Shown: in pieces, positions 2,504 through 19,008 of the stretch
Position numbering within the stretch: the stretch's first letter is position 1
Layout of the letters: each line of letters starts with the position of its first letter
Origin: Alphaproteobacteria bacterium HGW-Alphaproteobacteria-6
Lineage (GTDB): Bacteria > Pseudomonadota > Alphaproteobacteria > Rhodobacterales > Rhodobacteraceae
NCBI GenBank assembly: GCA_002841115.1
Contig: PHEC01000016.1
Location: 1-32,816, forward strand
Reading direction: 5' to 3'
DNA length: 32,816 nucleotides
Translations under genes and position numbers: made by a program
Notes under the pieces: generated by a model
Databases searched by the model: none
What the model was told of the DNA's origin: nothing
Seen by the model: the letters and a program-made list of their open reading frames with translations, nothing else

Positions 2504-2653
2504 TTCCAAATCCCCCTGATCGCCGGCATCTATGCTCGATCCGCCTCTCCGGACGATCCTCCGCCTGCCGCTGGCATCGGGTCGCCCGGCCCTCGACTGC
2601 GGATGCGCCCACCCTGACGGGCAGGCGGATCCGGCTTGGGTTCGTCACGCGGA

Positions 2654-4039
2654 TCAGATGGTATCGAAGTAGCGACGCAGTTCCCATTCGGTGACATTCT
2701 CCGCGACCCACTGCTCGTAGAGGTCGCATTCGGTATCGCGGGTCAATGCATACTGCCCGACGAAGTCGCTGCCGAAGAGTTCCTGCACCTTCTCCGACTC
2801 CTTGAACATGCGCGTCGCGTCCCTGAGATTGCGCGGAAGCTTGCGAAAGCGCGGGTCGTTGCCGGCATTGCCGGTGGCATAGCTCAGCGGCTCCAGCCCG
2901 TTCTCGATGCCGTGCAGGCCCGAGAGAATGCAGGCAGCAATGCACAGATAGGGGTTCATGTCGCCGCCCGGCTGACGGGTCTCGATGCGCACGCCCTCGG
3001 GTTTGGGGCCGGTGATCGCGCGCAGCGCGGCGGTTCGGTTGTCCTCTGCCCAGGACGCGTTTTCGGGGCACCATTGCAGGCTGCTGCGCCGCCGGTAGGA
3101 GTTGATCACCGGGTTGTAGATCGCCGTCAGCTCGGGCATGACGTCCATCATCCCGGCAGCAAACTGGCGCCCGACGGTCGACATCCCGCCGGCCTTTCCG
3201 GTCGAGAATGCCGGCTTGCCGTCTTTCCACAGGCTGAGGTGGATATGCGCGCCGGTTCCGGTATCGCCGATCCTCCACTTCGACATGAAGGTCGCCACCA
3301 GACCGTGCTCGATGCAGAGCTGCTTGAAGTAGAGCTTCGCCCGGGCCGCGCGGTCGGCCATTTCCAGAGCCGGAGCATGCGACAATGCGAACTCGACCTG
3401 GCCATAGCCCAGCTCGCAGTGGAAGGCGTCGATCTCGATGCCGACGCTTGCCATGCGGCTATGGTATTCGCGCATGATCTCTTCGATGTCGACGATCCGC
3501 GTCAGGCTGTAGGCGTTCATCGTTCGGCTCAGCATCGGCAGATCATAGTGCCGGCCCTGTTTGATCAGGTCATTGTCGGCATGCATGATGTAGGTTTCAT
3601 ACTCGACCGCGCAGCGCACATCGAACCCCGCCGCCTCGGCCTTGTCGATCGCCTTGCGCAGCACGGTGCGCGGCGACATCGGGCAAAGCTCGCCGTTCGC
3701 GGGGTCGACCATGTCGCAGACCACCGAGGCGAACTCGGGCCGCCAGGTCTGATGGATCGCCGAATCGAGGTCGGGCACCGTAAACAGGTCCGGGAACCCG
3801 TTCTCGAAGGAACTGAACTTCGATTCCATGACGTCGTCCTGCGTGGACAGGCCATAGAGGATGGTGCAATAGGCATTGCCCAGATCGCCGAGACCCTTGC
3901 TGGGCTTCGTGATCTTCCCGCGCAGCATCCCGTCCATATCGGGAACCTCGATCTGGACATATTTCACGCCAGCCTTGGTCATCTTGTCGATCAGCGCCTT
4001 TGTCCGCGCAGGATCGTTCATCACCGAATTCCTGGACAT
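2654..4039 (-). CDS. Glutamine synthetase-family ligase (probable gamma-glutamyl-amide synthetase)
   Basis: A 461-residue member of the glutamine synthetase fold, which joins glutamate to ammonia or an amine with ATP. Conserved elements in order: the N-terminal beta-grasp (about 20-110); VEYETY with metal-binding Glu (about 145-150); HCELGYGQVEFAL (about 207-219); the ATP-site signature GTGAHIHLSL (261-270); NSYRRR (313-318); NRTAALR (334-340); and RIETRQPGGDMNPYL (351-365). The adenylylation-type C-terminus of classical GlnA is not evident. Together with liv transporter genes and a catabolic operon on the other strand, this points to an amine-specific enzyme (as in isopropylamine, methylamine or aniline routes) rather than housekeeping GlnA. 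The substrate is unknown. The ATG at 4039 has an AAGGA site six bases upstream. Confidence 0.85.
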   Translation of the reverse strand: MSRNSVMNDPARTKALIDKMTKAGVKYVQIEVPDMDGMLRGKITKPSKGLGDLGNAYCTILYGLSTQDDVMESKFSSFENGFPDLFTVPDLDSAIHQTWRPEFASVVCDMVDPANGELCPMSPRTVLRKAIDKAEAAGFDVRCAVEYETYIMHADNDLIKQGRHYDLPMLSRTMNAYSLTRIVDIEEIMREYHSRMASVGIEIDAFHCELGYGQVEFALSHAPALEMADRAARAKLYFKQLCIEHGLVATFMSKWRIGDTGTGAHIHLSLWKDGKPAFSTGKAGGMSTVGRQFAAGMMDVMPELTAIYNPVINSYRRRSSLQWCPENASWAEDNRTAALRAITGPKPEGVRIETRQPGGDMNPYLCIAACILSGLHGIENGLEPLSYATGNAGNDPRFRKLPRNLRDATRMFKESEKVQELFGSDFVGQYALTRDTECDLYEQWVAENVTEWELRRYFDTI

Positions 4040-4246
4040 TTGAAGTCCTTACCTCCCGTTGAGTGTCTTATTGATCATCCAAGTTTTTCACCGCGTTTCC
4101 GGGCGGTGCCTATCTGCGCAGAGGCGTGGACAGTCGCGCGCACCTGGGCGCGCTTTTTCCTGCGTCATGCATCCGCGGCCGATTGTCTGGAGTCCTGCGC
4201 CGCGCGTCATTTGCAGAACGAGGCGCGACGGCATCCGATTTCACTA

Positions 4247-4275
4247 TTGACTTCACCTCCATGCCAGTATTGCAT
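4247..4275 (+). promoter_or_regulatory. Candidate promoter of the gntR-led operon
   Basis: TTGACT at 4247-4252 is a good -35 match. Seventeen bases later TTGCAT (4270-4275) is a weak -10. The predicted transcript would start near 4281, leaving about 25 untranslated bases before the GTG at 4307. The -10 lies inside the tandem 13-bp repeat, which would suit repression by the adjacent regulator. Confidence 0.35.
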
Positions 4276-4294
4276 ACAGTGATTGCATCCAGTA
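4269..4294. promoter_or_regulatory. Tandem 13-bp direct repeat, candidate operator
   Basis: Two abutting 13-mers, ATTGCATACAGTG (4269-4281) and ATTGCATCCAGTA (4282-4294), agree at 11 of 13 positions. They lie between the regulator gene and the divergent glutamine synthetase gene, over the predicted -10 and transcript start of the regulator. GntR/FCD regulators usually bind short symmetric sites, so a head-to-tail pair is a plausible autoregulatory operator. This is inference from position and repetition. Confidence 0.5.
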
Positions 4295-4306
4295 AGGGGG
4301 CGCAGC

Positions 4307-5104
4307 GTGCCGGTGTCAAGTGAGAAATCAGGTCGATCAGCATCCCAGCCCGAGGGATTGGTGGCTGCTGTCCATGCGACAATCCTGGATGCCATCTGTA
4401 GCGGCATGTTTCCGCCTGGCACACGTCTGGGGCAGGAGTGGCTGGCCGAACGGTTCGGCGTCTCGCGTCAGCCCGTCGCGCAGGCGCTTGCCCTGATGAA
4501 GGCGCAGGGGTTTGTCACCGACGTTGGTCGGCGCGGACTGATGGTCAATTCGCTTACCTCCGACTATGTCTCCTCGATGTACGAGGTGCGCGGTGCGCTT
4601 GACGCGCTGGCAGCAAGACTGGCCGCTGCAAACTGTCGGTCGGCCGACCAAAGGGCGTCCGCGCGTGCGGCGTTCGACCGGCTCCTCGCTGCCGGCGATG
4701 CGGCCATCGCCTCGAAAGCCGTGACCGACCTGATCGCCGCGGATGTGGCCTTTCACAGCTATATCTACACGCTCTCGAAGAACTCGGTGATCAGCGAGAC
4801 GATGGAACCCTTGTGGAGCCGGATGCGCTGGGTGATGTCGGCCTATCTGCGCGAGCATGACTGGGCGAAAGGCACCTGGGGCGAGCATCGACGGATCATC
4901 GAGGCTATCCTCGCCGCCGACCCGCAGGCTGCCGCGGCGGCTGTCGACGCGCATTTGGTCAATGCCATCGGCCTGATCGAAGGATCGATCGGCGACGGGA
5001 TGACGAAACTGGGCGCCGCGCAATTTCACTCGCCGATCAGCCTGAAAGGCGATCGCGAGGTGTCGAGGCAAAACGAAAATCAGGAGAAGAGCGATGAAAA
5101 ATGA
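4307..5104 (+). CDS. GntR-family transcriptional regulator, FCD subfamily
   Basis: A 265-residue regulator. The N-terminal winged helix (about residues 15-80) contains LAERFGVSRQPVAQAL, the recognition helix. The C-terminal FCD ligand-binding domain has the metal-site pattern Asp-x3-His in AADVAFH, a His in EHRRII and a His in DAHLVNA. FCD regulators sense small organic acids, so the ligand is likely a pathway acid. The upstream TTG at 4283 is unlikely. The GTG at 4307, six bases after AAGGGGG, is chosen. The gene overlaps the next coding region by 11 bases and is divergent from the glutamine synthetase, so it probably controls both directions. Confidence 0.9.
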   Translation: MPVSSEKSGRSASQPEGLVAAVHATILDAICSGMFPPGTRLGQEWLAERFGVSRQPVAQALALMKAQGFVTDVGRRGLMVNSLTSDYVSSMYEVRGALDALAARLAAANCRSADQRASARAAFDRLLAAGDAAIASKAVTDLIAADVAFHSYIYTLSKNSVISETMEPLWSRMRWVMSAYLREHDWAKGTWGEHRRIIEAILAADPQAAAAAVDAHLVNAIGLIEGSIGDGMTKLGAAQFHSPISLKGDREVSRQNENQEKSDEK

Positions 5105-5510
5105 TGCGGCCCCGATCCGGGTGATGATGACGAAGCTTGGGCTGGATGGTCATGATCGCGGCGTGAAGATCGTCGCCCGCGTCCTGCGCGATGCGGGTAT
5201 CGACGTGATCTATGCCGGTCTGCACCGGTCGCCCGAAGAGGTCGTCACCGCCGCCATTCAGGAAGATGTCGATGTCCTCGGGGTCAGCCTGCTTTCGGGC
5301 GCGCACATGCCGCTTTTCGGGAAGGTCCTGGACCTTCTGAGGGAAAAGAACGCGCTTCACATCACCGTCGTCGGCGGCGGACTGATGCCCGATGAGGATG
5401 TCGCGAAGCTGAAGGAAATGGGGGTTGCCGACATCATGCGGCAGGATTCGACCCCCGAGCAGATCGTGGCAACCATCCGTCGTGTCGTCGCCGAACGCAG
5501 TGATGCGTGA
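5094..5510 (+). CDS. hcmB: B12-binding small subunit of an acyl-CoA mutase (HcmB/IcmB-like)
   Basis: A 138-residue free-standing cobalamin-binding domain. The DGHDRG motif (residues 18-23) supplies His20, the lower axial ligand of cobalt. SLLSG (65-69) and GGG (94-96) complete the Rossmann-like nucleotide-tail pocket. A separate small subunit of this size is typical of isobutyryl-CoA and 2-hydroxyisobutyryl-CoA mutases, whereas methylmalonyl-CoA mutase usually carries the domain fused. It pairs with the large subunit at 7942-9642, although ligase and chaperone genes lie between them. The start overlaps the regulator gene and the stop overlaps the GTG of the next frame, indicating tight translational coupling. 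Confidence 0.92.
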   Translation: MKNDAAPIRVMMTKLGLDGHDRGVKIVARVLRDAGIDVIYAGLHRSPEEVVTAAIQEDVDVLGVSLLSGAHMPLFGKVLDLLREKNALHITVVGGGLMPDEDVAKLKEMGVADIMRQDSTPEQIVATIRRVVAERSDA

Positions 5511-5542
5511 GCGATCGAACAGCGCGCCTTTTAGGGATTAGA

Positions 5543-6967
5543 ATGATGGAAGACTGGTCGTTCCCGCCTGCCTACAATTCCAGCTACCTGCCAGACGCCA
5601 GCCAGCGTTTCTGGTATCCGAAACGCGAGACCATGGATCCCGGCGCGCGCGAGAAGGCAATTCTGGAACGCATCCGCGACGTGATGGCCTATGCCTATGC
5701 CAAGGCGCCATTCTACAAGAACAAGTGGGACGCGGCCGGCATCCACCCGTCGCACATCCGGTCGCTGGAAGATTTCGAGAAGGTTCCGGTCGTCACCAAG
5801 CAGGAATTGCGCGCGGCACAGGAACGCGCCGAACCATTCGGGGACTATCTGTGCATTCCCGAGCAAGAGGTGCACCGCATCCATGGCACATCCGGCACCA
5901 CCGGACGCCCGGTCATCTTCGCGATCGGCAAGAACGACTGGGACGCGATCGGCAACGCCCATGCGCGCATCATGTGGAGTTTCGGCATTCGCCCGGGTGA
6001 TCTGGTGTTCATCGGCGCGCTCTTTTCCCTTTACATCGGCTCCTGGGGCATTCTGGCGGGGTCCGAGCGGATGCGCGCCAAGTCCTTCCCCTTCGGCGCC
6101 GGTGCCGCGGGGCAGACCGCGATCGCCGCGCGCTGGCTGAAACTTGCCAAGCCCAAGGCCATCTACAACACCCCGTCCTATGCGCTGCATCTGGCCGAAG
6201 TCGCCCGCGAGGAAAAGATCGATCCGCGCGAGTTCGGCATCAAGATCATGATGTGTTCGGGCGAGCCGGGCGGATCGATTCCGGCGATCCGCAACAAGCT
6301 TCAGGAAATCTACGGCGCCAAGGTGATCGATTGCGGCACCATGGCGGAGATGACGCCGTGGATGTCTTCGTCCGGCAACAGCGAAACCGATCTCGGCATG
6401 GTGCTGTGGCAGGACATCGTCTATCACGAGGTCTGCGACCCCAAGACCTTCACGCGGGTGCCCTATGGCAGCCAGGGGACGCCGGTCTACACCCATCTCG
6501 AACGCACGTCGCAGCCGATGATCCGGCTTGCTTCGGGCGATCTGACGATGTGGGAAGCGGGCCCTGCCCCCTGTGGCCGCACCTATCCCTATCTGCCGAA
6601 AGGGCTTTACGGCCGGATCGACGACATGTTCCAGATTCGCGCCGAGAACGTCTATCCCAGCGACATCGAGGCGATTGTCGCGGGCATGCCCGAATACGGC
6701 GGCGAACACCGGGTGATCATCACCCGCGCCGGGCAGATGGATGAGCTTTTCGTCCAGATCGAAGCATCGCCGGGCATCTATCAGGCGGGCGATGCCGCGA
6801 TCGCGGACTTGCGTGCGAAAGCGGCGACGCTGCTGCAACGCGGCATCGGCGTCCGCGCCAAGGTCGAGGTGCTGGCGCCCAATACCCTTGAGCGGGCGCA
6901 GCACAAGGCACGCCGGGTCATCGATGACCGCAATCTCTTTGCCTCGCTGCAACAAGACAGGACCTGA
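5543..6967 (+). CDS. PaaK-type acyl-CoA ligase (2-hydroxyisobutyryl-CoA ligase-like)
   Basis: An AMP-forming CoA ligase of the phenylacetate-CoA ligase branch. It should activate a carboxylic acid to an acyl-adenylate and then to the CoA thioester. The phosphate-binding loop reads HGTSGTTGRP. Further motifs are the adenylate pocket CGTMAEMTPW, the hinge YGRIDDMFQIRAENVYPSDI and a C-terminal ERAQHKARRV Lys/Arg stretch. I favour the ATG at 5543 (474 residues), seven bases after AGGG. A GTG at 5507 overlapping the previous stop is an alternative adding 12 residues. Its location between mutase subunit genes strongly suggests it makes the mutase substrate, as Hcl does in the 2-hydroxyisobutyrate pathway. 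Substrate not proven. Confidence 0.88.
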   Translation: MMEDWSFPPAYNSSYLPDASQRFWYPKRETMDPGAREKAILERIRDVMAYAYAKAPFYKNKWDAAGIHPSHIRSLEDFEKVPVVTKQELRAAQERAEPFGDYLCIPEQEVHRIHGTSGTTGRPVIFAIGKNDWDAIGNAHARIMWSFGIRPGDLVFIGALFSLYIGSWGILAGSERMRAKSFPFGAGAAGQTAIAARWLKLAKPKAIYNTPSYALHLAEVAREEKIDPREFGIKIMMCSGEPGGSIPAIRNKLQEIYGAKVIDCGTMAEMTPWMSSSGNSETDLGMVLWQDIVYHEVCDPKTFTRVPYGSQGTPVYTHLERTSQPMIRLASGDLTMWEAGPAPCGRTYPYLPKGLYGRIDDMFQIRAENVYPSDIEAIVAGMPEYGGEHRVIITRAGQMDELFVQIEASPGIYQAGDAAIADLRAKAATLLQRGIGVRAKVEVLAPNTLERAQHKARRVIDDRNLFASLQQDRT

Positions 6968-6974
6968 ACCGAAC

Positions 6975-7937
6975 ATGGCAAAAGTTGCTCCAATGGATCT
7001 GGTTGCCGGCGTTCTGAAGGGCGAGACGGTTCCCATCGCGCGGCTGCTCTCCTGTGCCGAGGCCGCCGATGATGCGAGCCGCCCGGCGCTGGCGCGCATC
7101 TTCGAGCATACCGGCAAGGCCCATGTCGTCGGCATTACCGGGGTTCCCGGCAGCGGCAAGTCGACCCTGACCGCGGTTCTCGCCGAGGAGTTTGCCAACA
7201 GCGGGCGCAAGGTCGGGATCATCGCGGTCGATCCGTCAAGCCCGTTTTCCGGCGGCTCGATCCTGGGCGACCGGATCCGGATGGCCGATATCGCCATGAA
7301 CCCGAATGTCTTCATCCGCTCGATGGCGACACGGGGCGCGATGGGCGGGCTGTCGCGCGGCTGTCTCGACGCGGTCGATATCCTGGACGCCGCCGGTTTC
7401 GACCTCATCCTGATCGAGACGGTCGGCGTCGGCCAGGACGAGATCGAGATCGTGCAGGCCGCGCATACCGTGATCGTGGCGTCCGCGCCCGGTCTCGGCG
7501 ACGAGATTCAGGCGATCAAGGCCGGTGTTCTGGAAATCGCCGACATCCACATCGTGACCAAATGCGACCGATCCGACTCCAATCAGACCATCCGCGAGCT
7601 CAAGGGCATGCTCAAGATGGGCGATCTCACCAAGTTCATCGAGGGCTGGGAGCCCAAGGTGATCGGCACAAGCTCGTTGCGCCGCGAAGGCATCGCCGAG
7701 CTTGCCGCCGCGATCGACGGGCATCGCAGCTATCTCGAGACCTCGGGCGAGATCGTTGCGCGGCGCCGCAAGATTTCCGAGACGCGGATGCTCAAGATCG
7801 CGGAATCGCTCATTCGGAAACGGTTCTACGAGGAACGCCTTGGCTCCATCTCCGAACTTTGCGGCCAGATGGAACGCAAGATGATCGCCCCGGATGCCGC
7901 CGCACGCCAGCTGCTGGCCAGAATTAACGGAGAGTGA
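6975..7937 (+). CDS. meaB: MeaB/ArgK-type G-protein chaperone of B12 mutase
   Basis: A 320-residue GTPase that gates loading and protects adenosylcobalamin in acyl-CoA mutases. It has P-loop GVPGSGKST (about 57-65), the DPSSPFSGGSILGDRIRM region (about 87-104), ETVGVGQDE (149-157) as the G3 motif and TKCD (196-199) as the guanine-specificity motif ((N/T)KxD). The C-terminal helical dimerisation arm is present. The ATG at 6975 is preceded by a short gap after the ligase stop. It sits immediately upstream of the mutase large subunit, so it is a dedicated chaperone and not a general one. Confidence 0.93.
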   Translation: MAKVAPMDLVAGVLKGETVPIARLLSCAEAADDASRPALARIFEHTGKAHVVGITGVPGSGKSTLTAVLAEEFANSGRKVGIIAVDPSSPFSGGSILGDRIRMADIAMNPNVFIRSMATRGAMGGLSRGCLDAVDILDAAGFDLILIETVGVGQDEIEIVQAAHTVIVASAPGLGDEIQAIKAGVLEIADIHIVTKCDRSDSNQTIRELKGMLKMGDLTKFIEGWEPKVIGTSSLRREGIAELAAAIDGHRSYLETSGEIVARRRKISETRMLKIAESLIRKRFYEERLGSISELCGQMERKMIAPDAAARQLLARINGE

Positions 7938-7941
7938 CTCA

Positions 7942-9642
7942 ATGACGAAGCATGACATCTTTCAGCCAACCACGCTGAAGAAGCTCGAAAAGCAGTTCGC
8001 CGACTGGGAAGCCAATGAACTGGCCGAGTCGCTTGAACGCCGCGGTGAAAGCAAGGACGAGTTCCGGACCGAGGCAGGCATCGCGATCAAGCGCGTCTAT
8101 ACCCCGCTCGACATCGCGGACATTCCGCCCGAGGACATCGGGCTTCCGGGGCAATACCCCTTTACCCGTGGTCCCTATCCGACCATGTATCGCGCGCGTC
8201 CCTGGACGATCCGGCAGGTGTCCGGCTACGGCAATGCCGAGGACACCAACGCGCGCTACAAATATCTGATTGCGGCGGGCCAGACCGGCATTTCAACGGA
8301 TTTCGACATGCCGACGCTGATGGGCTACGATTCCGATCACCCGATGGCCTTCGGCGAGGTTGGCCGCGAGGGCGTGGCGATCGACACGCTCGACGACATG
8401 GAGGCATTGTTCGACGGCATCGACCTGAACGTCATCTCGGCCTCGCTGACGATCAATCCCACCGCGTTCATCATCTATGCGATGTGGGTGTCTGCGGCCA
8501 AGAAGCGCGGCTACGACCCGCAGCGCCTGATGGGCACGATCCAGGCCGACATCCTCAAGGAATATGTCGCGCAGAAGGAATGGATCTTTCCGGTGCGCCC
8601 CTCGGTCCGGCTGGTGCGCGACACCATTCTTTACAGCGCCGAGCACACCAAGCGGTTCAACCCGATCAGCATCTCCGGCTACCATATCTCCGAGGTCGGC
8701 GGCAACGCGGTCCACGAGGTGGCATTCACCATCGCCTTCGCGATCTCCTACATCGAGGAATGCCAGAAACTCGGCATGTCGGTGGATGAATTCGCGCCGC
8801 GCCTTTCGTTCTTCTACGTCTGCCAGGCGGATTTCTTCGAGGAGATCGCGAAATTCCGGGCCGCGCGCCGGGTCTATGCAAAGGTGATCAAGGAGCGCTT
8901 CGGCGCGGAACTGGCCGAGTCGATGCGCATGCGCATGCATGTCCAGACGGCGGCGATGACCCTGACCAAGCCGCAATACCGGATCAACCTGATGCGCACC
9001 GCGGTTCAGGCGCTGGCCGCCGTGCTTGGTGGTGCGCAGAGCATGCACACCAATGGTTTCGACGAAGCCTTCACGATTCCCACCGCGGAGGCGATGAAGC
9101 TTGCGATCCGCACCCAGCAGATCCTTGCCGAAGAGACCAATGTCACGTCGATTGTCGATCCGCTCGGCGGTTCCTATGCGGTAGAGGCGCTGACTTCGGA
9201 GTTCGAGGCCAAGGTCTTCGAGATGCTGAACCAGATCGACGATCTGGGCGGCGCGATCAAGGCGGTCGAAGCCGGGTGGATGCAGCGCATCTGCGCCGAC
9301 ACGGCCTATGAATACGAACTTCGCAAGGCGCGCGGCGAACGCACCGTGATCGGCGTCAACAAATACGTCGAAGAGGACGAGGAACCGGCCGACTTTGCGC
9401 CCCATCCCTATGACGAGGGCACGCTCGAACGCCAGCTGGCGCGACTGAACCGCGTCCGCGCCGAGCGGGACACGGCCAGTGTGCAAGCGATCCTGGAGCG
9501 GATGAAGGTCATCGCGACCGACGAAAAACAGAACCTTCTGCCGGTGACGATGGAGGCGGTGGAAGCCAAGGCAACACTTGGGGAAATCTGCGATGCGCTG
9601 CGCTCTGTCTGGGGTGTCTACCGCGAAGAACCGATCTTCTGA
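7942..9642 (+). CDS. hcmA: Large subunit of a 2-hydroxyisobutyryl-CoA mutase-like acyl-CoA mutase
   Basis: A 566-residue TIM-barrel subunit without a B12 domain, as in HcmA/IcmA. The substrate-facing region is TMYRARPWTIRQVSGYG (about 81-97) followed by GISTDFDMPTLMGYDSDHP (about 116-134). In characterised HcmA, Ile90 and Asp117 define specificity. Here the equivalent positions, kept 27 residues apart, are Val93 and Asp120. Methylmalonyl- and isobutyryl-CoA mutases have Tyr or Phe at the first site and no Asp at the second. The Asp argues for a hydroxylated acyl-CoA, and the smaller Val for a different or larger side chain. Other conserved stretches are ISGYHISEVGGNAVHE and LGGAQSMHTNGFDEA. 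The start is four bases after the chaperone stop. Confidence 0.93.
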   Translation: MTKHDIFQPTTLKKLEKQFADWEANELAESLERRGESKDEFRTEAGIAIKRVYTPLDIADIPPEDIGLPGQYPFTRGPYPTMYRARPWTIRQVSGYGNAEDTNARYKYLIAAGQTGISTDFDMPTLMGYDSDHPMAFGEVGREGVAIDTLDDMEALFDGIDLNVISASLTINPTAFIIYAMWVSAAKKRGYDPQRLMGTIQADILKEYVAQKEWIFPVRPSVRLVRDTILYSAEHTKRFNPISISGYHISEVGGNAVHEVAFTIAFAISYIEECQKLGMSVDEFAPRLSFFYVCQADFFEEIAKFRAARRVYAKVIKERFGAELAESMRMRMHVQTAAMTLTKPQYRINLMRTAVQALAAVLGGAQSMHTNGFDEAFTIPTAEAMKLAIRTQQILAEETNVTSIVDPLGGSYAVEALTSEFEAKVFEMLNQIDDLGGAIKAVEAGWMQRICADTAYEYELRKARGERTVIGVNKYVEEDEEPADFAPHPYDEGTLERQLARLNRVRAERDTASVQAILERMKVIATDEKQNLLPVTMEAVEAKATLGEICDALRSVWGVYREEPIF

Positions 9643-9672
9643 TCACCATCTCAGCAGGGAAAGAAAGACCGA

Positions 9673-10431
9673 ATGGCGGATAACATACTCATCGAAAGTC
9701 TCGACGGCGGCATCCGGCGCGTCACTTTCAACCGTCCGCATTGCCTGAATGCGGTCAATCTGGCGCTGATGGACGATCTGATGACGGTGATCGCCGACCT
9801 TCAGAAGGACGACGACGCGCGCGTCGTCATCCTGCGCGGAGCGGGGAGAGCGTTCAGCACCGGTGACGACCTGAAGGATTTCGAGAACCAGATCGAGACC
9901 GAGGCGCAGATACGCCGCTTCATCGGCCAGTATCAGATCGTCAGCAAGGCCATCGTCGACTCGCCGAAGATCTTCATTGCCGAAGTGCATGGCTGGGCGG
10001 TCGGCGGGGCGCTGGAATGGGTGATCAACTGTGATTTCAGCGTGTTCTCAAGCGAAACGCGCTGCTTCTTTCCGGAAGTCACGTTCGGGCTTTTCGTCAC
10101 CGGCGGGATCGCTTCGCTGCTGACCAAGCAACTCGGGCCGCAGCGCACCAAGGAGTTGATCCTTTTCGGCGAAAAGTTCGACGCGCAGCGCGCGCTTGAA
10201 CTCGGAATCGCCGGCCGTGTGGTCGCGCCCGAGACCCTGGAGGAAACGACACTCGACATGGCGCGGCGCATCTGCGAGCGGCCGCGCAAGGCGGTGATCG
10301 ACCTCAAGCGCGTGATCAACGCGGGCTATCACCTTGATGTTGCAGCGGCGATGGAACTGGAAACCGAGGCCGCCGTGCGCGGATTCCTCGACCCGGATAC
10401 TGCCGCACGCGTGGGCAAGGCCGCCGGCTGA
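9673..10431 (+). CDS. Enoyl-CoA hydratase/isomerase family protein
   Basis: A 252-residue crotonase-fold protein. The oxyanion-hole segment AFSTGDDLKDF is near 60-70, and HGWAVGGALEW (106-116) provides the second backbone amide and Glu115. PEVTFGL supplies Glu135. Both glutamates used by true hydratases are therefore present, so hydration or dehydration of a CoA thioester is possible, though isomerase or hydrolase members share the fold. An AGGGAAAG ribosome site precedes the ATG. The position after the mutase suits processing of its product or a branched enoyl-CoA feeding it. Confidence 0.9.
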   Translation: MADNILIESLDGGIRRVTFNRPHCLNAVNLALMDDLMTVIADLQKDDDARVVILRGAGRAFSTGDDLKDFENQIETEAQIRRFIGQYQIVSKAIVDSPKIFIAEVHGWAVGGALEWVINCDFSVFSSETRCFFPEVTFGLFVTGGIASLLTKQLGPQRTKELILFGEKFDAQRALELGIAGRVVAPETLEETTLDMARRICERPRKAVIDLKRVINAGYHLDVAAAMELETEAAVRGFLDPDTAARVGKAAG

Positions 10432-10488
10432 GCCCGCCTGGAGATGAGATGACGGAAATGGCTCGACGCCGATTTGGGGGATGAGGAC

Positions 10489-11250
10489 ATGAGGTTCACG
10501 GATACTGTCACGGTGATCACCGGCGCTGGCGCCGGCATGGGGCGGGCGGCGGCGCTAAGGCTTGCGGCCGAAGGCGGCAAGGTCATGTGTCTCGACCTGT
10601 CCGCCAAGACCGCCGCGGAAACGGCCGATCTGGTGCGCGCTGCCGGCGGCGTCGCGGAATCGATCGCTTGCGACGTGCGCGACCGCGCCGCCATCGTAGC
10701 GGCCCGCGACCACGCGATCAAAAGCTTCGGCGCCGTCCACAACCTGGTCAACAGCGCCGGTGCGCTGACCATGCAGGGCCTCGCCGATACCGATGATGCC
10801 GGCTGGAACCTGGTGATGGACGTCAACGTCAAGGGCGTCTTCCTGATGCTGCAGGTGTTTGTTCCCGAAATCGAGCGTGCGGGCGGCGGCTCCATCGTCA
10901 ACATCACCTCGATCGAGGCCGAGGTCGTGGTGGCGAGCGGCGAAAACACGCAGCCGCATTACGCTTGTTCCAAAGGTGCCGTGAAGACGATGACGCGCAC
11001 ACTCGCCCATGATCTCGGGCGCAAGAACATCCGCATCAATGCGATCGCACCGGGCCTGATCGCCACCGGTTTCGGCGGGTCCAATCCCGGTTCCGAGCGT
11101 TACCAGCAGTATGTCCACCAGCACAGCGCGCTCAGGCGGGCGGGTCAGGCCGAAGAAATTGCCGGCGCGATCGCCTTCCTGTTGTCGAAAGACGCAAGCT
11201 ACATCACCGGCGCACAACTGCCCGTGGATGGCGGCTGGCTGATCTATTGA
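10489..11250 (+). CDS. Short-chain dehydrogenase/reductase, likely hydroxyacyl-CoA dehydrogenase
   Basis: A 253-residue classical SDR. The nucleotide motif TGAGAGMG follows the first strand, CDVRD (Asp after beta-4) and NSAG are present, and the catalytic set is Ser in NITS, Tyr and Lys in YACSK. An acidic residue at the end of beta-2 (CLDLS) predicts NAD rather than NADP. The ATG at 10489 lies behind GGATGAGG, and the longer TTG start at 10474 is rejected. In this operon it would oxidise the 3-hydroxyacyl-CoA produced by the mutase, as an SDR does in the 2-hydroxyisobutyrate route, or a P450-derived alcohol. Confidence 0.9.
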   Translation: MRFTDTVTVITGAGAGMGRAAALRLAAEGGKVMCLDLSAKTAAETADLVRAAGGVAESIACDVRDRAAIVAARDHAIKSFGAVHNLVNSAGALTMQGLADTDDAGWNLVMDVNVKGVFLMLQVFVPEIERAGGGSIVNITSIEAEVVVASGENTQPHYACSKGAVKTMTRTLAHDLGRKNIRINAIAPGLIATGFGGSNPGSERYQQYVHQHSALRRAGQAEEIAGAIAFLLSKDASYITGAQLPVDGGWLIY

Positions 11251-11370
11251 TGCGCGTTGCGCGGGCCGCAGATTGCCGCAGGCAAAGCCGGATCCGGCAC
11301 CCTTCGGGGGCGGGGGGCGACAAGACGGCCGGCGTGGCGATCCCGCGCGGTCCGGATGAGGGAGGGCAAC

Positions 11371-12348
11371 ATGGCAGAAGACATCTTTGACGTGGTGATC
11401 GTCGGAGCCGGCCCGGTCGGACTTTATGCCGCCTACTATGCCGGATACCGATCGCTGAAGGTGGCGGTCATCGACGCCCTGCCGCAGATCGGCGGCCAGG
11501 TCTCGGCCATGTATCCCGAAAAGGAGATCCGCGACATCGCCGGTTTTCCCACGATCCTCGGCAAGGACCTGATCCATAACCTGCACGAGCAGGCCGGCCG
11601 CTATCCATTTGAACTCGTGCTGGGGGAAACCGTCAATGCGGTCAGGACGGTTTCGGACGATCGGCTTGTGCTGGCGACCGAGACCGGGCGCCAGATCGAG
11701 ACGCGGTCACTTCTGATCGCCGCGGGGCTGGGCCGGTTCACGCCCAAGTCGTTGCCGAGCCTTCAGCCGCCCTATCCCGACGGGGTCATGCATTTCGTCC
11801 CCGACGTGTCGGAGCTTGACGGACGGCGCGTGGTGATCGTCGGCGGCGGCGACAGCGCCGTCGACTGGGCCCTGGCGGCCCTGCCGCGCGCCAGATCGGT
11901 GACGGTGATCCATCGGCGCGCGCGGTTCCGCGCCCATGAGGCCAGCGTCGAGGAAATCCGTGCCGGCGGGGCACGCATCATCGCGCCCGGCGAGATAGGC
12001 CAATTGCGCGGCATGTCCACCATCGAGGGGGTCGTGGTCCGGCAGCCCGGTGCCGAGGCCGAGGAGATCGCCTGTGACAGGCTGATCATGGCGCTTGGCT
12101 TCACCTCCGATCTTGGCGCCTTCGCGGAATGGGGGCTGGCATCGGCAGGCATCCACTTCACGGTCGGTGCGGACATGCAGACCTCGCGCAAGCGGATTTT
12201 CGCGATCGGCGACGTCAGCGAGTATCCCGGCAAGGTGCGGCTCATTGCGGTCGGGTTTGGCGAGGCCGCCATCGCCGTCAATCACATCGCCGCAACGCTC
12301 AACCCCGATCAGCAAATCTTCCCCGGCCACAGCACACACGCAGAGTAA
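11371..12348 (+). CDS. Ferredoxin-NADP reductase, thioredoxin-reductase-like type
   Basis: A 325-residue flavoprotein with FAD motif VVIVGAGPVGLYAAYYAG at the N-terminus, NADPH motif VVIVGGGDSAVDWA in the middle and the FAD-closing IFAIGDVSEYPGK near the C-terminus. The CxxC redox pair of thioredoxin reductase is missing, which places it with the YumC-type ferredoxin-NADP reductases. The start ATG at 11371 follows GGGAGG; about 120 bases separate it from the SDR stop. Directly followed by a 7Fe ferredoxin, so the two make one electron-transfer pair, probably feeding the P450. Confidence 0.9.
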   Translation: MAEDIFDVVIVGAGPVGLYAAYYAGYRSLKVAVIDALPQIGGQVSAMYPEKEIRDIAGFPTILGKDLIHNLHEQAGRYPFELVLGETVNAVRTVSDDRLVLATETGRQIETRSLLIAAGLGRFTPKSLPSLQPPYPDGVMHFVPDVSELDGRRVVIVGGGDSAVDWALAALPRARSVTVIHRRARFRAHEASVEEIRAGGARIIAPGEIGQLRGMSTIEGVVVRQPGAEAEEIACDRLIMALGFTSDLGAFAEWGLASAGIHFTVGADMQTSRKRIFAIGDVSEYPGKVRLIAVGFGEAAIAVNHIAATLNPDQQIFPGHSTHAE

Positions 12349-12353
12349 GACCA

Positions 12354-12701
12354 ATGCCCTATGTCATTTCAGATCCATGCATCGCCAGCCGCGACCAGGC
12401 CTGTGTCGATGTATGCCCGGTGGACTGCATCTACGAAGGATCAAAACGGTTCTGGATTCACCCGACCGAATGCATCGATTGCGGCGCCTGCGAAGCCGTC
12501 TGTCCGGTCAGTGCGATCTACTACGTCGATATGGATCACCCGACCGATGACCTGACCGAAGCGCATGAATTCTTTGACACGGTGCTGCCCGGGCGCGAGG
12601 CGCCGCTGGCCTCGCCGCGCGGTGCCGCGAAGGTTGGTCCGCTGGAAACCGATCTGCCGCGCCTGCTGGCGGAAAACACCGCTGCCGCGAAAGAGGAATA
12701 G
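12354..12701 (+). CDS. fdxA: 7Fe-8S ferredoxin (FdxA type)
   Basis: A 115-residue ferredoxin. Cys9, Cys17 and Cys50 match the [3Fe-4S] ligands and Cys21, Cys40, Cys43 and Cys46 the [4Fe-4S] ligands of the Azotobacter FdI pattern, with a one-residue offset; an extra Cys25 also matches. The C-terminal extension contains an acidic helix and a low-complexity Ala/Pro tail. It starts five bases after the reductase stop, so the pair is translated together. Expected role: single-electron carrier between the reductase and the P450 or another oxidase. Confidence 0.93.
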   Translation: MPYVISDPCIASRDQACVDVCPVDCIYEGSKRFWIHPTECIDCGACEAVCPVSAIYYVDMDHPTDDLTEAHEFFDTVLPGREAPLASPRGAAKVGPLETDLPRLLAENTAAAKEE

Positions 12702-12758
12702 CACGACCGGGGAAACGCGCAGTTTGCTTGGCTCTGATCAACGCAAGGGAGGATGAGA

Positions 12759-13931
12759 ATGACAAGTATCAAGGACATCGAGCGCACCATGGATTTCCAT
12801 GGCGAGGCGCTGGACAACATCTTCGAGACCTATCGGCTGATGCGGGAAAACTGCCCGGTCGGCAGAAGCGAGAAATACGGTGGCTTCTGGTTCCTGAGCA
12901 AGAGTGACGATATCTTCAAGGTCGAGCAGGATGCCGAAACCTATTCGGTCAAGCCGACCATGCTGGTGCCGCCGGTGGCCGATTTTCCGATGATCCCGAT
13001 CGATACGGACCTGCCGGAATTGATGGACTACCGGCGCATCCTGCTGCCGCTCTTCACGCCGCAGGCCCTTGCGAAGATGGAAAAGCCGGTGCGCGACATC
13101 TCCCAGGACCTGGCGAGGAAATTCGTCGAATCCGGATCGACCGACGCCACCGCCGGGTTCGCCCGGGCACTTCCGACGATCTTCTTCAGCCGCCTCGCCG
13201 GCTTTCCCGAAAAGGACTGGCCGAAATTCGATGCCTGGGTCGATGACATCCTTTACGAGCGCACCGTGGATCCGGAGCGGGCCAGGAAGGCACAGGATGC
13301 CGTCATCGCCTATTTCGATGACCTGATCGAAAAGTATCGTGGCCGGACCATCGACGAGGCCGATACCGGCACGATCATGGACTTCCTTCTCGAAGCCAGG
13401 ATCAAGGGCGAGCCGCTGAGCCGCAAGGAACTGCTGTCCTATTGCTACCTGATGTTTCTTGGCGGGCTGGACACCACGGCATGGGCCATTCGCGCAAGCC
13501 TGTGGCACCTGGCGCAGGACCTCGACGCGCAGCGCAAGCTTCGCGAAAACCCCGAACTGATCCCGATGGCAGCCGAAGAGTTCCTTCGCACCCTGTCGCC
13601 GGTGCAGGCGATGGGGCGCACCTGCAAGAAGGACACCGTCATCCGCGGACAGGAAATCAAGGCTGGCGACCGGGTAGTGCTGCTGTTCGGCGCGGGCAAC
13701 CGCGATCCGGAAATCTACGACGAGCCCGAGAAGATCAAGATCGACCGCGAAGACAATCGTCATCTGGCCTTCGGCGCCGGGCATCACCGCTGCCTCGGTT
13801 CCAATCTCGGGCGGCGCGAACTGGTCATCGGGCTTGAGGAATTCCTGAAGGTCGTGCCCGAGTTCACCCTCGGGGACCCGTCGGAGAAATGGTATGGTGT
13901 CGGTCGTCTGACCCTCAACTTCAAGTCGTGA
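12759..13931 (+). CDS. Cytochrome P450 monooxygenase
   Basis: A 390-residue soluble bacterial P450 that inserts one oxygen atom using electrons from a ferredoxin. The I-helix shows GGLDTT (acid plus Thr for oxygen activation), the K-helix EEFLR, and the haem loop FGAGHHRCLG with Cys345 as the iron ligand. The ATG at 12759, six bases after AAGGGAGG, is better placed than the ATG at 12753, which directly abuts that site. It is surrounded by two ferredoxins and two reductases. A tertiary methyl, tert-butyl or ether substrate would fit a pathway ending in a tertiary-hydroxyacyl-CoA mutase, but the CYP family and substrate cannot be assigned by eye. Confidence 0.95.
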   Translation: MTSIKDIERTMDFHGEALDNIFETYRLMRENCPVGRSEKYGGFWFLSKSDDIFKVEQDAETYSVKPTMLVPPVADFPMIPIDTDLPELMDYRRILLPLFTPQALAKMEKPVRDISQDLARKFVESGSTDATAGFARALPTIFFSRLAGFPEKDWPKFDAWVDDILYERTVDPERARKAQDAVIAYFDDLIEKYRGRTIDEADTGTIMDFLLEARIKGEPLSRKELLSYCYLMFLGGLDTTAWAIRASLWHLAQDLDAQRKLRENPELIPMAAEEFLRTLSPVQAMGRTCKKDTVIRGQEIKAGDRVVLLFGAGNRDPEIYDEPEKIKIDREDNRHLAFGAGHHRCLGSNLGRRELVIGLEEFLKVVPEFTLGDPSEKWYGVGRLTLNFKS

Positions 13932-13944
13932 GGGAGAAGGCAAG

Positions 13945-14145
13945 TTGAAAGTCCTGCTTGATTCCCATCGCTGCCAGGGTCACGCCAGATGCGCGGCCTT
14001 TGCCCCCGAAACCTTCGTTTTCGACGATGACGGCTTCTCACGCGTGCGCGAAGGCATGGAAGACGTCAAACCCGAGAACCAGGCCGGGGTCAGGAAGGCC
14101 TGCGCCAACTGTCCCGAACTCGCCATTTCCATCGTCGAAGACTGA
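13945..14145 (+). CDS. [3Fe-4S] ferredoxin of P450 systems
   Basis: A 66-residue ferredoxin with the pattern Cys10-x2-His13-x2-Cys16 and a distal Cys56-Pro. Replacement of the second Cys of the usual motif by His is the mark of the P450-associated ferredoxins of Rhodopseudomonas (HaPux type) and many actinobacteria. The start is a TTG at 13945 behind AGGGAGAAGG. It is located just after the P450 and just before an FAD reductase, so it is most likely the direct donor to the P450. Confidence 0.92.
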   Translation: MKVLLDSHRCQGHARCAAFAPETFVFDDDGFSRVREGMEDVKPENQAGVRKACANCPELAISIVED

Positions 14146-14162
14146 CCTTGGACCGGGAAGTG

Positions 14163-15362
14163 ATGACAAAGAACAGCGCCGAGGACCGGCACGGCATTCG
14201 CAGTGTCGCGATCATCGGCGCTTCCCTTGCCGGAGGCGCGTGCGTGGCGCGCCTCCGTGCTCTTGGCTACGATGGGCAGATCACCGTGATCGACCCGGAC
14301 CCGCTGGCGCCCTATGATCGGCCGCCACTGTCCAAGGGGGTTCTGACCAGAGCAGCCCCCATCGAGACGCCGCGCTGGTGGTGCGACGACTGCACGCTCT
14401 TGCGCGGACGGGCGGTCGCACTCGATCCTTGGGCGCGCCGCATCGGGATCCGCGAACCCGACGGCCAAAGCCGGTTTGTGTCTGCCGACGCCATCGTGAT
14501 TGCCACCGGGGCCAGACCGCGCAGGTTGCCGACAGAGCCTGCGGGCGTCCTGGCGCTGCGCAGCGCGGCAGATGCGAAGGCCCTGTGCGATGCGCTCGAT
14601 CGCGGGGCGAAAAGCGCCACCATCATCGGGGCCGGGGTTCTTGGCTGCGAGATTGCCTCTTCCTTGCGGGCACGCGGTGTCGAGGTTGCCATGGCAGATC
14701 TGGCACCGCTGCCGCTCGTTCGTATCTTCGGTGCCGAAATCGGCAAGATGGCGGTCGGCTGGATGACAGAGGCCGGCGTCGCCCTGCACCTCGGCGTGGG
14801 GATCGCCGCAATCCGCGCCGGGTCCGCCGGATTTTCGGTGGACCTCGCCAGTGGCACGCAACTGCAAAGCGATCTGGTGATCAGTGCCATCGGCGCGGAA
14901 CCCGAAACCGAGTGGCTGAACGGCAGCGGGATCGGGATCGCCAATGGCGTGCTTTGCGACGGGTCCGGGGCGGTGCTTGATCGCGACGGGGCGATCTTGC
15001 CGAATGTCTTTGCCGCCGGGGATGTCGCGGCCTTGCGCGACCAGAATGGCAGCCACCGGCGCCACGAGGCCTGGACCGCCGCCCGACAGCAGGGCACCGA
15101 GGTCGCGGAGCGGATCCTGAATGGATCGCAGGCATCTGCGCCCGATGCAGAAGACTATTTCTGGACCGACCAGTTCAGCCGCAAGATTCAGGTCCTCGGA
15201 AGCGTGCCTGCCAATGGCACGCTGAACTGCGTCAGAACGACTGCCCGGCGGCACGGTGCCCTGTTCGAGGTTCGCGACGGCGAAAGGCATGCTGGCTGGA
15301 TCGCCATGAACTGCCCGGAACTTCTTGCGCAGGTTCAGGCCGGATTGCTTGCGGCAGAATGA
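14163..15362 (+). CDS. FAD-dependent ferredoxin/rubredoxin reductase of the P450 system
   Basis: A pyridine-nucleotide-disulfide-oxidoreductase-fold enzyme of 399 residues like putidaredoxin reductase. The FAD motif is AIIGASLAGGACVARL, the NAD motif IIGAGVLGCEIASSL, and the second FAD motif VFAAGDVAAL; the stretch PYDRPPLSKG is typical. I use the ATG at 14163; an in-frame GTG at 14160 and TTG at 14148 are alternatives. It is separated from the [3Fe-4S] ferredoxin stop by under 20 bases. This gives the operon a second complete NAD(P)H-to-P450 chain beside the FNR/7Fe ferredoxin pair. Confidence 0.9.
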   Translation: MTKNSAEDRHGIRSVAIIGASLAGGACVARLRALGYDGQITVIDPDPLAPYDRPPLSKGVLTRAAPIETPRWWCDDCTLLRGRAVALDPWARRIGIREPDGQSRFVSADAIVIATGARPRRLPTEPAGVLALRSAADAKALCDALDRGAKSATIIGAGVLGCEIASSLRARGVEVAMADLAPLPLVRIFGAEIGKMAVGWMTEAGVALHLGVGIAAIRAGSAGFSVDLASGTQLQSDLVISAIGAEPETEWLNGSGIGIANGVLCDGSGAVLDRDGAILPNVFAAGDVAALRDQNGSHRRHEAWTAARQQGTEVAERILNGSQASAPDAEDYFWTDQFSRKIQVLGSVPANGTLNCVRTTARRHGALFEVRDGERHAGWIAMNCPELLAQVQAGLLAAE

Positions 15363-15472
15363 TGAGCGGGTCGTCGACCGGTCCGCGGCATGATCGAACA
15401 GCGGGCGCCCGCCGGCAACCGGTCGCGCCGCAGCCAACGGGAATGTCAACATCGATAGCTCTGGGGTGATCC

Positions 15473-15760
15473 ATGGGACAGTTGCGCAAACAGGCCAAGG
15501 CATTGTCACGGCAGGTGCGGCGAGGCGATGTCTCGGCTGCGCGACAACTTCTGTCGCACAGCGTCCGGATGGGGCACCGGAATCTGGCCGTGCGTCGGTT
15601 CTTTCTTGCCCTTGCCATGGGGGCGCGGGACGTGGAGGATGAAGCACGCTACTGCGCAGAGATCATCTCGGTGCTGCCCGACGAGACTGTCAGGAAGATG
15701 ATCGCCGAAGCCCGGTGCAACGCAGGCGTCTTCACGACAAGGGGAAACCACGATGCCTGA
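15473..15760 (+). CDS. Unknown small basic helical protein
   Basis: A 95-residue protein that I do not recognise. The N-terminal half is rich in Arg and Lys with predicted helix (QLRKQAKALSRQVRRGD), followed by further Ala/Arg-rich helices and two cysteines. There is no signal peptide or membrane segment. Its stop overlaps the start of the next gene by eight bases (ATGCCTGA), so both are likely made in fixed ratio, which suggests a partner role for the hexapeptide-repeat protein. About 110 bases separate it from the reductase. Confidence 0.65.
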   Translation: MGQLRKQAKALSRQVRRGDVSAARQLLSHSVRMGHRNLAVRRFFLALAMGARDVEDEARYCAEIISVLPDETVRKMIAEARCNAGVFTTRGNHDA

Positions 15761-16820
15761 GCCATGCGGTGCCGTCTTCGCCCCCTACATGGGCATTTCC
15801 CCCCGTTTTCTGGGGTCTCCCGCCTTTGTCGGCGCTGGCGCTTCCGTCTTGGGCCGGGCAACGATCGGACGGCGCGCCTGGCTGGGCAGCTATTCCGTGA
15901 TCCGAGCGGACGGCCACCATGTCGCGATCGGCGACGATTTTCACCTTGGAGAGCACGCCACGGTTCATATCGCCCATGAGGTCTATCCGACGGTGATCGG
16001 AAGCCGGGTGGTCGCAGGCAGGCATGCCGTCGTTCACGCCTGCGAAATTGGCGACGACTGCATCATCGAAGCCGGGGCAGTCGTCCTCGACGGATCAAAG
16101 GTCGGTGCCGGTGCCGTGATTTCGGCAGGATCGATCGTTTTTCCCCGGTCCGAACTTGCGGGCGGCTGGCTCTATTCAGGCAGCCCGGCCCGGCCGGTCA
16201 CGCCCGTCACGCCGGAAGACCTTGTTTCGCGCCGCCATACGCCCGGAGATGCTGCGACCGGAAGTCCTGCGGCGGGGAAGGTCGGCGAGCCGGCCAAATC
16301 CCGTGCGACGAACCCGGCGCGGTTCGACTGCTTCGTGGCACCGACCGCGCGCCTTTCCGGTGATATCCGCCTCGGACAATCGGTCGGCATCTGGTATGGA
16401 TGCGTTCTGGACGGAGGCAGCCATGGCATCACGATCGGCGCCGGCACGAACGTTCAGGACAATACCCGGATCCTCTGCCAGCACGACGCCGTTGCAATCG
16501 CGGCGGATGTCACGATCGGCCACAACGTTACGCTCTTGGATTGCCGCATCGACAGCGGCAGTCTGGTCGGCATAGGGTCGGTCATTTCCCGCGGGACCGT
16601 CGTGGAACGCGACGTTCTCGTAGCCGCCGGGACCGAGACGACAACCGGACAACGTCTGACAAGCGGACAGGTATGGGCCGGAAAACCGGCCCGTCCGATC
16701 GGCAGGATGGACGACCGCAAGCGCGCGATGCTGGCTGAAACGCTGCCGACCTATCAAGGTTACGCCGAGCAATTCCGGCGAACTCAGCATGAAGCGCTGT
16801 CAGCGGAAGGCGCGCGATGA
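15753..16820 (+). CDS. Tandem gamma-carbonic-anhydrase-like hexapeptide-repeat protein
   Basis: A 355-residue protein made of two consecutive left-handed beta-helix domains (about 10-150 and 190-330), joined by a Pro/Ala-rich linker. Single-domain relatives (PaaY, CaiE, YrdA) are about 180-200 residues and act as thioesterases or carbonic anhydrases. The expected metal triad lies around a GHxxxxHGC motif. Domain 1 reads GRHAVVHAC and domain 2 GHNVTLLDC, so each domain lacks part of the usual histidine set. PaaY and CaiE occur in CoA-ester pathways, so a CoA-thioester salvage role is plausible. It is probably the last operon gene. Confidence 0.8.
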   Translation: MPEPCGAVFAPYMGISPRFLGSPAFVGAGASVLGRATIGRRAWLGSYSVIRADGHHVAIGDDFHLGEHATVHIAHEVYPTVIGSRVVAGRHAVVHACEIGDDCIIEAGAVVLDGSKVGAGAVISAGSIVFPRSELAGGWLYSGSPARPVTPVTPEDLVSRRHTPGDAATGSPAAGKVGEPAKSRATNPARFDCFVAPTARLSGDIRLGQSVGIWYGCVLDGGSHGITIGAGTNVQDNTRILCQHDAVAIAADVTIGHNVTLLDCRIDSGSLVGIGSVISRGTVVERDVLVAAGTETTTGQRLTSGQVWAGKPARPIGRMDDRKRAMLAETLPTYQGYAEQFRRTQHEALSAEGAR

Positions 16821-18993: not shown

Positions 18994-19008
18994 GGCCGCG
19001 CCGGACCC

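Follow-up and report, generated by a model that had tools for sequence, protein, structure and literature searches.

The DNA analyzed here (the window) comprises bases 1-32,816 of contig PHEC01000016.1 from the Rhodobacteraceae genome Alphaproteobacteria bacterium HGW-Alphaproteobacteria-6 (GCA_002841115.1; 3.77 Mb in 288 contigs, 87% complete). At positions 5094-16820 it carries thirteen genes, all on the plus strand, which a sequence-only reading had described as a single operon joining a cytochrome P450 system to a B12-dependent acyl-CoA mutase. We confirmed that this gene cluster is real and conserved and that it couples a P450 of a kind associated with the degradation of herbicide-derived amines to a B12 mutase. 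Its modules are known singly, namely clusters for 2-hydroxyisobutyryl-CoA mutase (HCM), the ipu system for isopropylamine and amine glutamylation by enzymes resembling glutamine synthetase (GS), while their union appears to be new. The cluster and the genes at its left flank are as follows.

280-1032, minus strand: tetratricopeptide repeat (TPR) protein, 3' of livF (PF13424)
1044-1862, minus strand: LivF-type ABC ATPase (92% identity in Rhodobacter amnigenus L103, 71% in Aestuariivirga L023)
1754-2509, minus strand: LivG-type ABC ATPase (PF00005, PF12399; 96% in L103, 75% in L023)
2654-4039, minus strand: GS-like enzyme, proposed gamma-glutamyl-alkylamide synthetase (PF00120)
4283-5104, plus strand: GntR/FCD regulator, start codon uncertain (family match; 11-base overlap with hcmB)
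5094-5510, plus strand: hcmB-like small B12-binding mutase subunit (PF02310, TIGR00640)
5507-6967, plus strand: PaaK-type acyl-CoA ligase, hcl-like (677 bits to 6hdw)
6975-7937, plus strand: MeaB/MeaH-type G-protein chaperone (PF03308, TIGR00750)
7942-9642, plus strand: hcmA-like large mutase subunit (807 bits to HCM 4r3u)
9673-10431, plus strand: enoyl-CoA hydratase (ECH) family protein, proposed ammonia lyase/hydratase (both catalytic Glu present)
10489-11250, plus strand: short-chain dehydrogenase/reductase (SDR), proposed alcohol oxidation (PF13561)
11371-12348, plus strand: TrxR-like FAD ferredoxin reductase (family match; relatives in P450-GS clusters)
12354-12701, plus strand: 7Fe-type (FdxA-like) ferredoxin (sequence; relatives in P450-GS clusters)
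12759-13931, plus strand: cytochrome P450 of the GS-linked (isopropylamine) clade (PF00067; tree)
13945-14142, plus strand: small ferredoxin, TTG start (frame read by eye, without family search)
14163-15362, plus strand: putidaredoxin-reductase-type enzyme, pdR (PF07992, PF14759)
15473-15760, plus strand: orf95, found as an accessory in some canonical HCM operons (no Pfam family)
15753-16820, plus strand: double gamma-carbonic-anhydrase (gamma-CA)/PaaY-like hexapeptide protein, accessory in many canonical HCM operons (family match)

The short gaps and overlaps described for the thirteen genes were borne out: from hcmB to the gamma-CA gene the intergenic distances are -4, 7, 4, 30, 57, 120, 5, 57, 13, 20, 110, and -8 bases, a layout that suggests a single operon. 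The start of the unit had been placed at 5094, and the gene run itself does begin there, but the overlap of the GntR/FCD gene with hcmB moves the beginning of the unit upstream. Divergent from it lie the GS-like gene, followed by the LivG and LivF ATPases and the TPR gene. A promoter scan gave two promoter-like matches against a shuffle mean of 2.1, i.e., no excess, and a terminator scan gave 12 against 9.6 ± 3.8 in shuffles. Overlapping open reading frames (ORFs) such as 2636-4282 and 238-1038, both on the plus strand, were rejected as they matched no Pfam family.

Conservation of the joined cluster was examined by scanning contigs with the large mutase subunit as query, which left 79 loci. 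The P450 half was present, within the stretches examined, in two of them, Rhodobacter amnigenus HSP-20 (L005) and an Aestuariivirga metagenome-assembled genome (L023). In both, the order hcmB-hcl-meaB-hcmA-ech-sdr-trxR-fd-P450-fd-pdR is that of the window, the aligned stretches are free of stops, and per-protein identity to the window reaches 90-99% in R. amnigenus and 54-84% in Aestuariivirga; the GntR match in L005 contains one stop inside its aligned stretch. A chimeric contig was rejected as an explanation, as the cluster order is the same in both genomes. The P450 half thus adjoins the mutase in three of the four members of the closest mutase group, as the joined reading predicted. In the fourth, L006 (71% mutase identity), GntR-hcmB-hcl-meaB-hcmA is followed by 615 bases, the extent examined, with no ECH or P450 match. 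At this locus (95-5007) the mutase operon adjoins genes of the dimethylglycine dehydrogenase type, one with DAO and GCV_T domains and the other recognized by eye, and elsewhere in the same genome (L125) a related ECH adjoins an OYE-like/Pyr_redox protein and a ligase-like ORF. Around 79 other HCM-like mutases (53 with Ile and 26 with Val at the pocket position discussed below; 76 from the contig scan and three from plasmids, with at least 3 kb of downstream sequence in 69 and at least 8 kb in 56), the stretches examined yielded no P450 match at 1e-5. At 1e-60, a P450 search of 394 family and 22 genus genomes, R. amnigenus presumably not among them, recovered the window's own copy alone, and among 397 genomes of the Aestuariivirga order the own genome matched at 80% and 16 others at 34-38%.

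The Aestuariivirga cluster differs from the window in some details. It is without orf95 and the gamma-CA gene, and its ech-sdr and sdr-trxR gaps widen to 548 and 598 bases, which means that the P450 half may have a promoter of its own. Between ech and sdr, L023 carries a RidA-type gene (12553-12951, PF01042), whose presence is suggestive of imine/enamine chemistry. Among canonical HCM operons, orf95 occurs 3' of hcmA in Cereibacter L046 and in four further loci (L016, L022, L033, and L035); in several of these operons, L046 for one, orf95 and the gamma-CA-like gene directly follow hcmA, and for this reason it looks as if a canonical HCM operon had received the ech-to-pdR block as an insertion within the Rhodobacter lineage.

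The P450 itself points to amines. When it was searched against plasmids, the ten best of 1276 matched records were 58-62% identical and the eleventh 36%. We inspected the neighborhoods of five of these ten (Aminobacter SR38, Agrobacterium AT13, Paenarthrobacter aurescens TC1 pTC1 and pTC2, and Microbacterium YJN-G), and all carry a GS-family and an amidotransferase-type gene in the cluster, the GS-family genes on both TC1 plasmids being annotated as ipuC; two of the GS-family genes carry the annotation gamma-glutamylisopropylamide synthetase. In a P450 tree, the window group and the five GS-linked enzymes form one clade (100/100) against 14 P450s at 35.5-37.4%, and the window's P450 is thus of the GS-linked kind expected of an Ipu-type glutamylated amine pathway. 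The electron-transfer partners have counterparts in the same clusters: the TrxR-like reductase (50-55%) and the 7Fe-type ferredoxin (65%) in Aminobacter and Agrobacterium, the small ferredoxin (52-57%) in four of the five GS-linked clusters inspected, and the putidaredoxin-reductase-type enzyme (39-43%) in the three actinobacterial ones. The ipu-type clusters also hold a GS-family enzyme and an amidotransferase, for which the window and its genome have distant candidates (28-36%), and they differ from the window in that no mutase is annotated in the stretches inspected and that the three actinobacterial ones contain an alanine dehydrogenase. The hosts of the ten plasmids, TC1 among them, are mostly triazine degraders; one of the ten comes from an atrazine factory according to its plasmid record. 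PMC6776027 treats the TC1 P450s, IpuC proteins, and amidotransferase as predicted parts of isopropylamine catabolism and describes a route via gamma-glutamyl-isopropylamide and gamma-glutamyl-alaninol, with the amidotransferase step postulated.

The mutase is HCM-like but departs from the canonical enzyme at a key pocket position. The best solved relative of the large subunit is HCM 4r3u (807 bits), followed by methylmalonyl-CoA mutase (453 bits). A plain methylmalonyl-CoA mutase was rejected on these scores and because Val and Gln occupy the positions of Tyr89 and Arg207, the residues of that enzyme for its dicarboxylic substrate. Window residues Val93, Asp120, and Gln211 align with HcmA Ile90, Asp117, and Gln208, three positions with a role in HCM. 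The equivalents of Asp117 and Gln208 are kept in all 83 aligned large subunits, the window included, and position 90 is divided between Ile (53) and Val (30), with Ile in Methylibium petroleiphilum and 4r3u, and Val in the window. The Val rows comprise 26 loci mostly from Rhizobiales (E loci) and the four of the window's own group (W loci). The alignment omits L002 and L084, which are copies of the window, and L003 and L004 (at most 480 aligned residues), none of which is among the 79 loci of the contig scan.

As the two groups are defined by this residue, their purity at position 90 is by construction, and the clade and the gene neighbors serve as independent tests. In the tree of all 83 rows, the Val enzymes fall on one side of one branch (SH-aLRT 99). 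A rooted tree was built from 29 of these mutases, with two further mutases of the window's own genome as an outgroup on long branches; here they form one clade (100/100) placed among Ile enzymes, the Val and most Ile rows split together from two Rokubacteria Ile rows (96/95), and a branch uniting the Val rows with L007 and L010 received 84/87. Further changes are common to the Val group, e.g., at window positions 98, 106, 243, and 339. In the alignment of the small subunit (74 rows) the DxHxxG motif is kept throughout, and position 73 is Pro in all W (4/4) and E (26/26) rows and Thr in all 44 rows of the Ile group.

The remainder of the mutase module is that of a canonical operon. The HCL-type ligase, MeaH-type chaperone, and GntR regulator with which HCM clusters are described (PMC7176365) are all found in the window, and the ligase (45 rows aligned) scored 677 bits to 2-hydroxyisobutyryl-CoA synthetase 6hdw against 221 for the next structure. 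The cluster of Aquincola tertiaricarbonis and M. petroleiphilum PM1 shares with the window the hcmB-hcl-meaB-hcmA order, the GntR regulator, the PaaK-type ligase, the Asp117/Gln208 pair, and the gamma-CA accessory gene. The window departs from it in having Val for Ile90, in carrying an ECH, an SDR, and the genes of a P450 chain after hcmA and before orf95, and in the GS-like gene and LIV ATPases that adjoin.

The ECH follows the Val-type mutases. A relative of the window's ECH (> 150 bits) stands beside the mutase in 25/26 E, 3/4 W, and 0/53 Ile loci (43 of the latter with at least 3 kb of downstream sequence), and both catalytic glutamates are kept in all 28 rows. The 15 plasmid records listed, out of 1718 matched by the ECH, are all from Sinorhizobium or Shinella; by coordinates, the ECH lies within 30 bases of an E-type mutase in 13 of these, and the other two fall outside the mutase list. 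The E clusters (L091 4183-11081 and 25 similar, Rhizobiales-centered loci) combine LysR and class III aminotransferase genes with hcmB, meaB, and the genes for the Val-type mutase, the ECH, and an AMP-forming ligase. LysR and the aminotransferase each occur in 25/26, a ligase of the Sinorhizobium meliloti kind in 25/26 at ≥ 69%, a LIV-type binding protein in 23/26, and an SDR with a thiolase in 12/26 within the stretch examined. Given the class III aminotransferase and the LIV-type binding protein, these clusters are probably amino-acid pathways. With the window, the clusters of S. meliloti, Mesorhizobium, and Shinella share the Val-type mutase, MeaB, and the adjacent ECH (47-55%), and their SDR (54%) and thiolase (61%) have relatives near the Aestuariivirga cluster; they differ in their LysR, class III aminotransferase, and different AMP-forming ligase, and in having no P450, GS-like or HCL-type ligase match in the stretches examined.

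Further candidate genes of an amine pathway accompany the cluster. The GS-like gene is 96% identical in R. amnigenus and 81% in Aestuariivirga, and nine of the 15 plasmid records listed for it (GS identity 33-36%) also carry the 58-62% P450. Genes for a LIV transporter, an aldehyde dehydrogenase (ALDH), and an amidotransferase (class-I GATase) are common to all three genomes, with the GATase beside the LIV genes in each; ALDH and GATase were assigned by family search, whereas tblastn and inspection by eye identified livH and livM. The R. amnigenus GS-livG-livF genes (L103) are followed within ~10 kb by an adenosyltransferase, the amidotransferase, and SBP-livH-livM-ALDH, where SBP is the substrate-binding protein. 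On the Aestuariivirga contig (L104), SBP-livH-livM-ALDH occurs with a divergent group of amidotransferase, thiolase, and SDR genes, and in the window's genome SBP-livH-livM-ALDH, the amidotransferase, and an adenosyltransferase lie on another contig (C215, L109). At the contig's left end (window 1-280) we noted by eye a sequence resembling an insertion sequence (IS) transposase, with a similar ORF in L109 near 13903; an IS element may have separated the LIV genes from the GS operon. On L023, an ORF at 2332-3099 resembles, by eye, the TPR protein and likewise lies 3' of livF.

All three genomes have, close to the cluster, a cob(I)alamin adenosyltransferase, 44% identical to the one annotated in M. 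petroleiphilum; L103 and L023 also have a CobT-like gene, recognized by eye without family search. These genes would be fitting for a B12-dependent pathway and have the following positions.

L103 4000-4578 and 11081-12085: adenosyltransferase/CobT-like genes
L109 12960-13532: adenosyltransferase gene
L023 19421-19999 and 1107-2240: adenosyltransferase/CobT-like genes

Taking together the observed gene content, conservation, clades, and diagnostic residues, we infer a route in which every substrate and reaction remains conditional. The window may contain the central part of a catabolic island whose substrate would be a tertiary alkylamine bearing a gem-dimethyl carbon, a reading we hold as a serious candidate falling a little short of probable; tert-butylamine and 2-amino-2-methylpropanol would be the simplest candidates. 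The LIV-type ABC transporter would take up the amine, and the GS-like enzyme would couple glutamate to it. The P450, supplied with electrons by the TrxR-like reductase/7Fe ferredoxin and by the second ferredoxin/reductase pair, would hydroxylate a methyl group of the gamma-glutamyl amide. The SDR and aldehyde dehydrogenase would oxidize CH2OH to COOH, and the amidotransferase-like enzyme would cut off glutamate to yield 2-aminoisobutyrate. A carbon of this kind, with a tertiary C-N bond, can be neither transaminated nor dehydrogenated, and hence the skeleton must be rearranged or cleaved first. The HCL-like ligase would form the CoA ester, and the B12 mutase would shift the thioester, converting 2-aminoisobutyryl-CoA to 3-aminobutyryl-CoA, in which the amino-bearing carbon is secondary. 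After this shift the amino group would stand beta to the thioester on a carbon that is no longer tertiary, which would explain the presence of the ECH: the enzyme would remove ammonia to give crotonyl-CoA and hydrate it, after which a dehydrogenase and a thiolase would lead to acetyl-CoA. Taken as a whole, the route would give a role to the GS-like gene, the ligase, the SDR and ALDH, and the extra ECH, and a reason for the P450 clade and the altered pocket. More tentatively, as something we consider possible rather than probable, the Val-type mutases could be a B12 enzyme in their own right, acting on 2-aminoisobutyryl-CoA (as a 2-amino-2-methylacyl-CoA mutase) in partnership with an ammonia lyase of the crotonase family dedicated to this route, and combined in the window with a glutamylation-P450 front end that would make tertiary alkylamines degradable.

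Several observations weigh against this amine route. The window mutase keeps the canonical Asp117 and Gln208, and its ligase is closest to the 2-hydroxyisobutyrate ligase. The GS-like enzyme is 33-36% identical to IpuC-type enzymes, and three better-ranked plasmid matches to it, when inspected, had no annotated P450 in the stretch covered. The conserved GATase shares 28-32% identity with its counterparts on four amine plasmids; its best plasmid matches are from Azospirillum (40%), with one P450-linked match (32%) among the 12 listed, and an Agrobacterium GATase query at 1e-10 found no match in the window's genome or R. amnigenus, and one at 4.9e-13 in Aestuariivirga. Three Ile loci (L039, L047, and L049) have a distant ECH (30-31%) < 2 kb from the mutase, and L006, of the same mutase group as the window, keeps its ECH (47%) elsewhere in the genome and not in the examined sequence 3' of hcmA. 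We know of no crotonase-fold 3-aminobutyryl-CoA ammonia lyase.

The main rival is the ordinary 2-hydroxyisobutyrate route, in which the P450 would hydroxylate a tert-alkyl alcohol or ether, the SDR and ALDH would produce 2-hydroxyisobutyrate, and HCL and HCM would form 3-hydroxybutyryl-CoA. It explains the ligase, the retained Asp117 and Gln208, and the operon core with its gamma-CA accessory gene. Among known systems, degraders of ethyl and methyl tert-butyl ether (ETBE/MTBE) have an EthABCD P450 and HCM in one organism to attack tert-butyl compounds; the two are not known to lie in one operon there, and the window's P450 belongs to the GS-linked clade. A 2-hydroxyisobutyrate route through the same gene set is established (PMC7176365 and PMC13188929), but it leaves the conserved GS-like and amidotransferase neighbors and the Val in place of Ile90 unexplained, and it needs no ECH after 3-hydroxybutyryl-CoA; in M. 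petroleiphilum the annotation of the HCM cluster lists a 3-hydroxybutyryl-CoA dehydrogenase and, in the stretch inspected, no ECH. On balance we consider this route unlikely. Of the gem-dimethyl or tert-alkyl compounds for which a joined route had been proposed, we favor a tertiary alkylamine over tert-butyl alcohol, MTBE/ETBE or pivalate, in view of the clade to which the P450 belongs, the GS-like neighbor, and the conserved genes for transporter, ALDH, and amidotransferase. The joining itself is supported by its conservation in three genomes.

Alternatively, two independent pathways without a shared substrate might occupy one locus, one of them hydroxylating isopropylamine (or a related amine) to yield an amino alcohol, the other an HCM-type acid pathway. 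The apparent insertion of the ech-to-pdR block between hcmA and orf95, the wide gaps around sdr in Aestuariivirga, and the occurrence of each half alone elsewhere would fit such an arrangement. We nevertheless regard it as quite improbable, since order and content are kept across two bacterial families at 54-99% identity and the ech, tied to this mutase type, stands on the P450 side; no alanine dehydrogenase was noticed among the genes inspected beside the cluster, although no search was aimed at one. Doubtful as well is a related amine pathway on another skeleton, for instance tert-amylamine or an isovaline-type compound, or one in which the P450 opens a cyclic amine; the substrate of the mutase would then be a larger 2-amino- or 2-hydroxyacyl-CoA. 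Val, present throughout the 30-row clade, would leave more space than Ile, and GS-like enzymes accept varied amines (PMC11335346), yet no sequence feature was found that points to a particular larger substrate.

GC content is similar in the operon (63%) and on its left flank (62%) and rises to 69% on its right flank, where a tRNA-Val (17735-17810) lies 3' of the operon and GC is higher beyond it; this would fit an acquired island with a possible boundary at the tRNA. Further downstream, we observed an apparently unrelated ABC transporter set (17953-22297), in which Pfam identified the binding protein and a double-length permease and the ATPase was recognized by eye. At 22528-25517, a P-type metal ATPase that has YHS and heavy-metal domains overlaps a DUF411 protein, a pair that likely serves metal handling.

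Amine glutamylation by GS-like enzymes is known (PMC11335346), and for 2-aminoisobutyrate PMC7782822 describes two routes, decarboxylation to acetone and methyl hydroxylation, neither of which uses a mutase. Among the open-access literature matches listed, outside which most subscription papers and preprints fall, there was no report of HCM united with this P450 or of bacterial tert-butylamine catabolism; the term "aminoisobutyryl-CoA" was not found in the open-access literature searched, nor the word butylamine in the accessible part of PMC4684385. Nitrogen on a fully substituted carbon, as in tert-butylamine, 2-amino-2-methylpropanol, and 2-aminoisobutyrate, resists the usual deamination, and such compounds enter the environment as tert-butylamine from terbuthylazine and drugs and as 2-amino-2-methylpropanol from CO2 capture. 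A preprint reportedly describes tert-butylamine degradation via 2-propanamine, which, if right, would be another route for the same compound. If the amino-acyl step is true, it would be a new B12 reaction that extends the acyl-CoA mutases to another class of substrate, and bacteria would have a third way of breaking down alpha,alpha-dialkyl amino acids. The combination of methyl oxidation, B12 radical rearrangement, and ammonia elimination would then be a new solution for tertiary C-N bonds, would provide marker genes to seek in wastewater and soil, and would offer a testable function for a mutase-hydratase cluster of the Rhizobiales.

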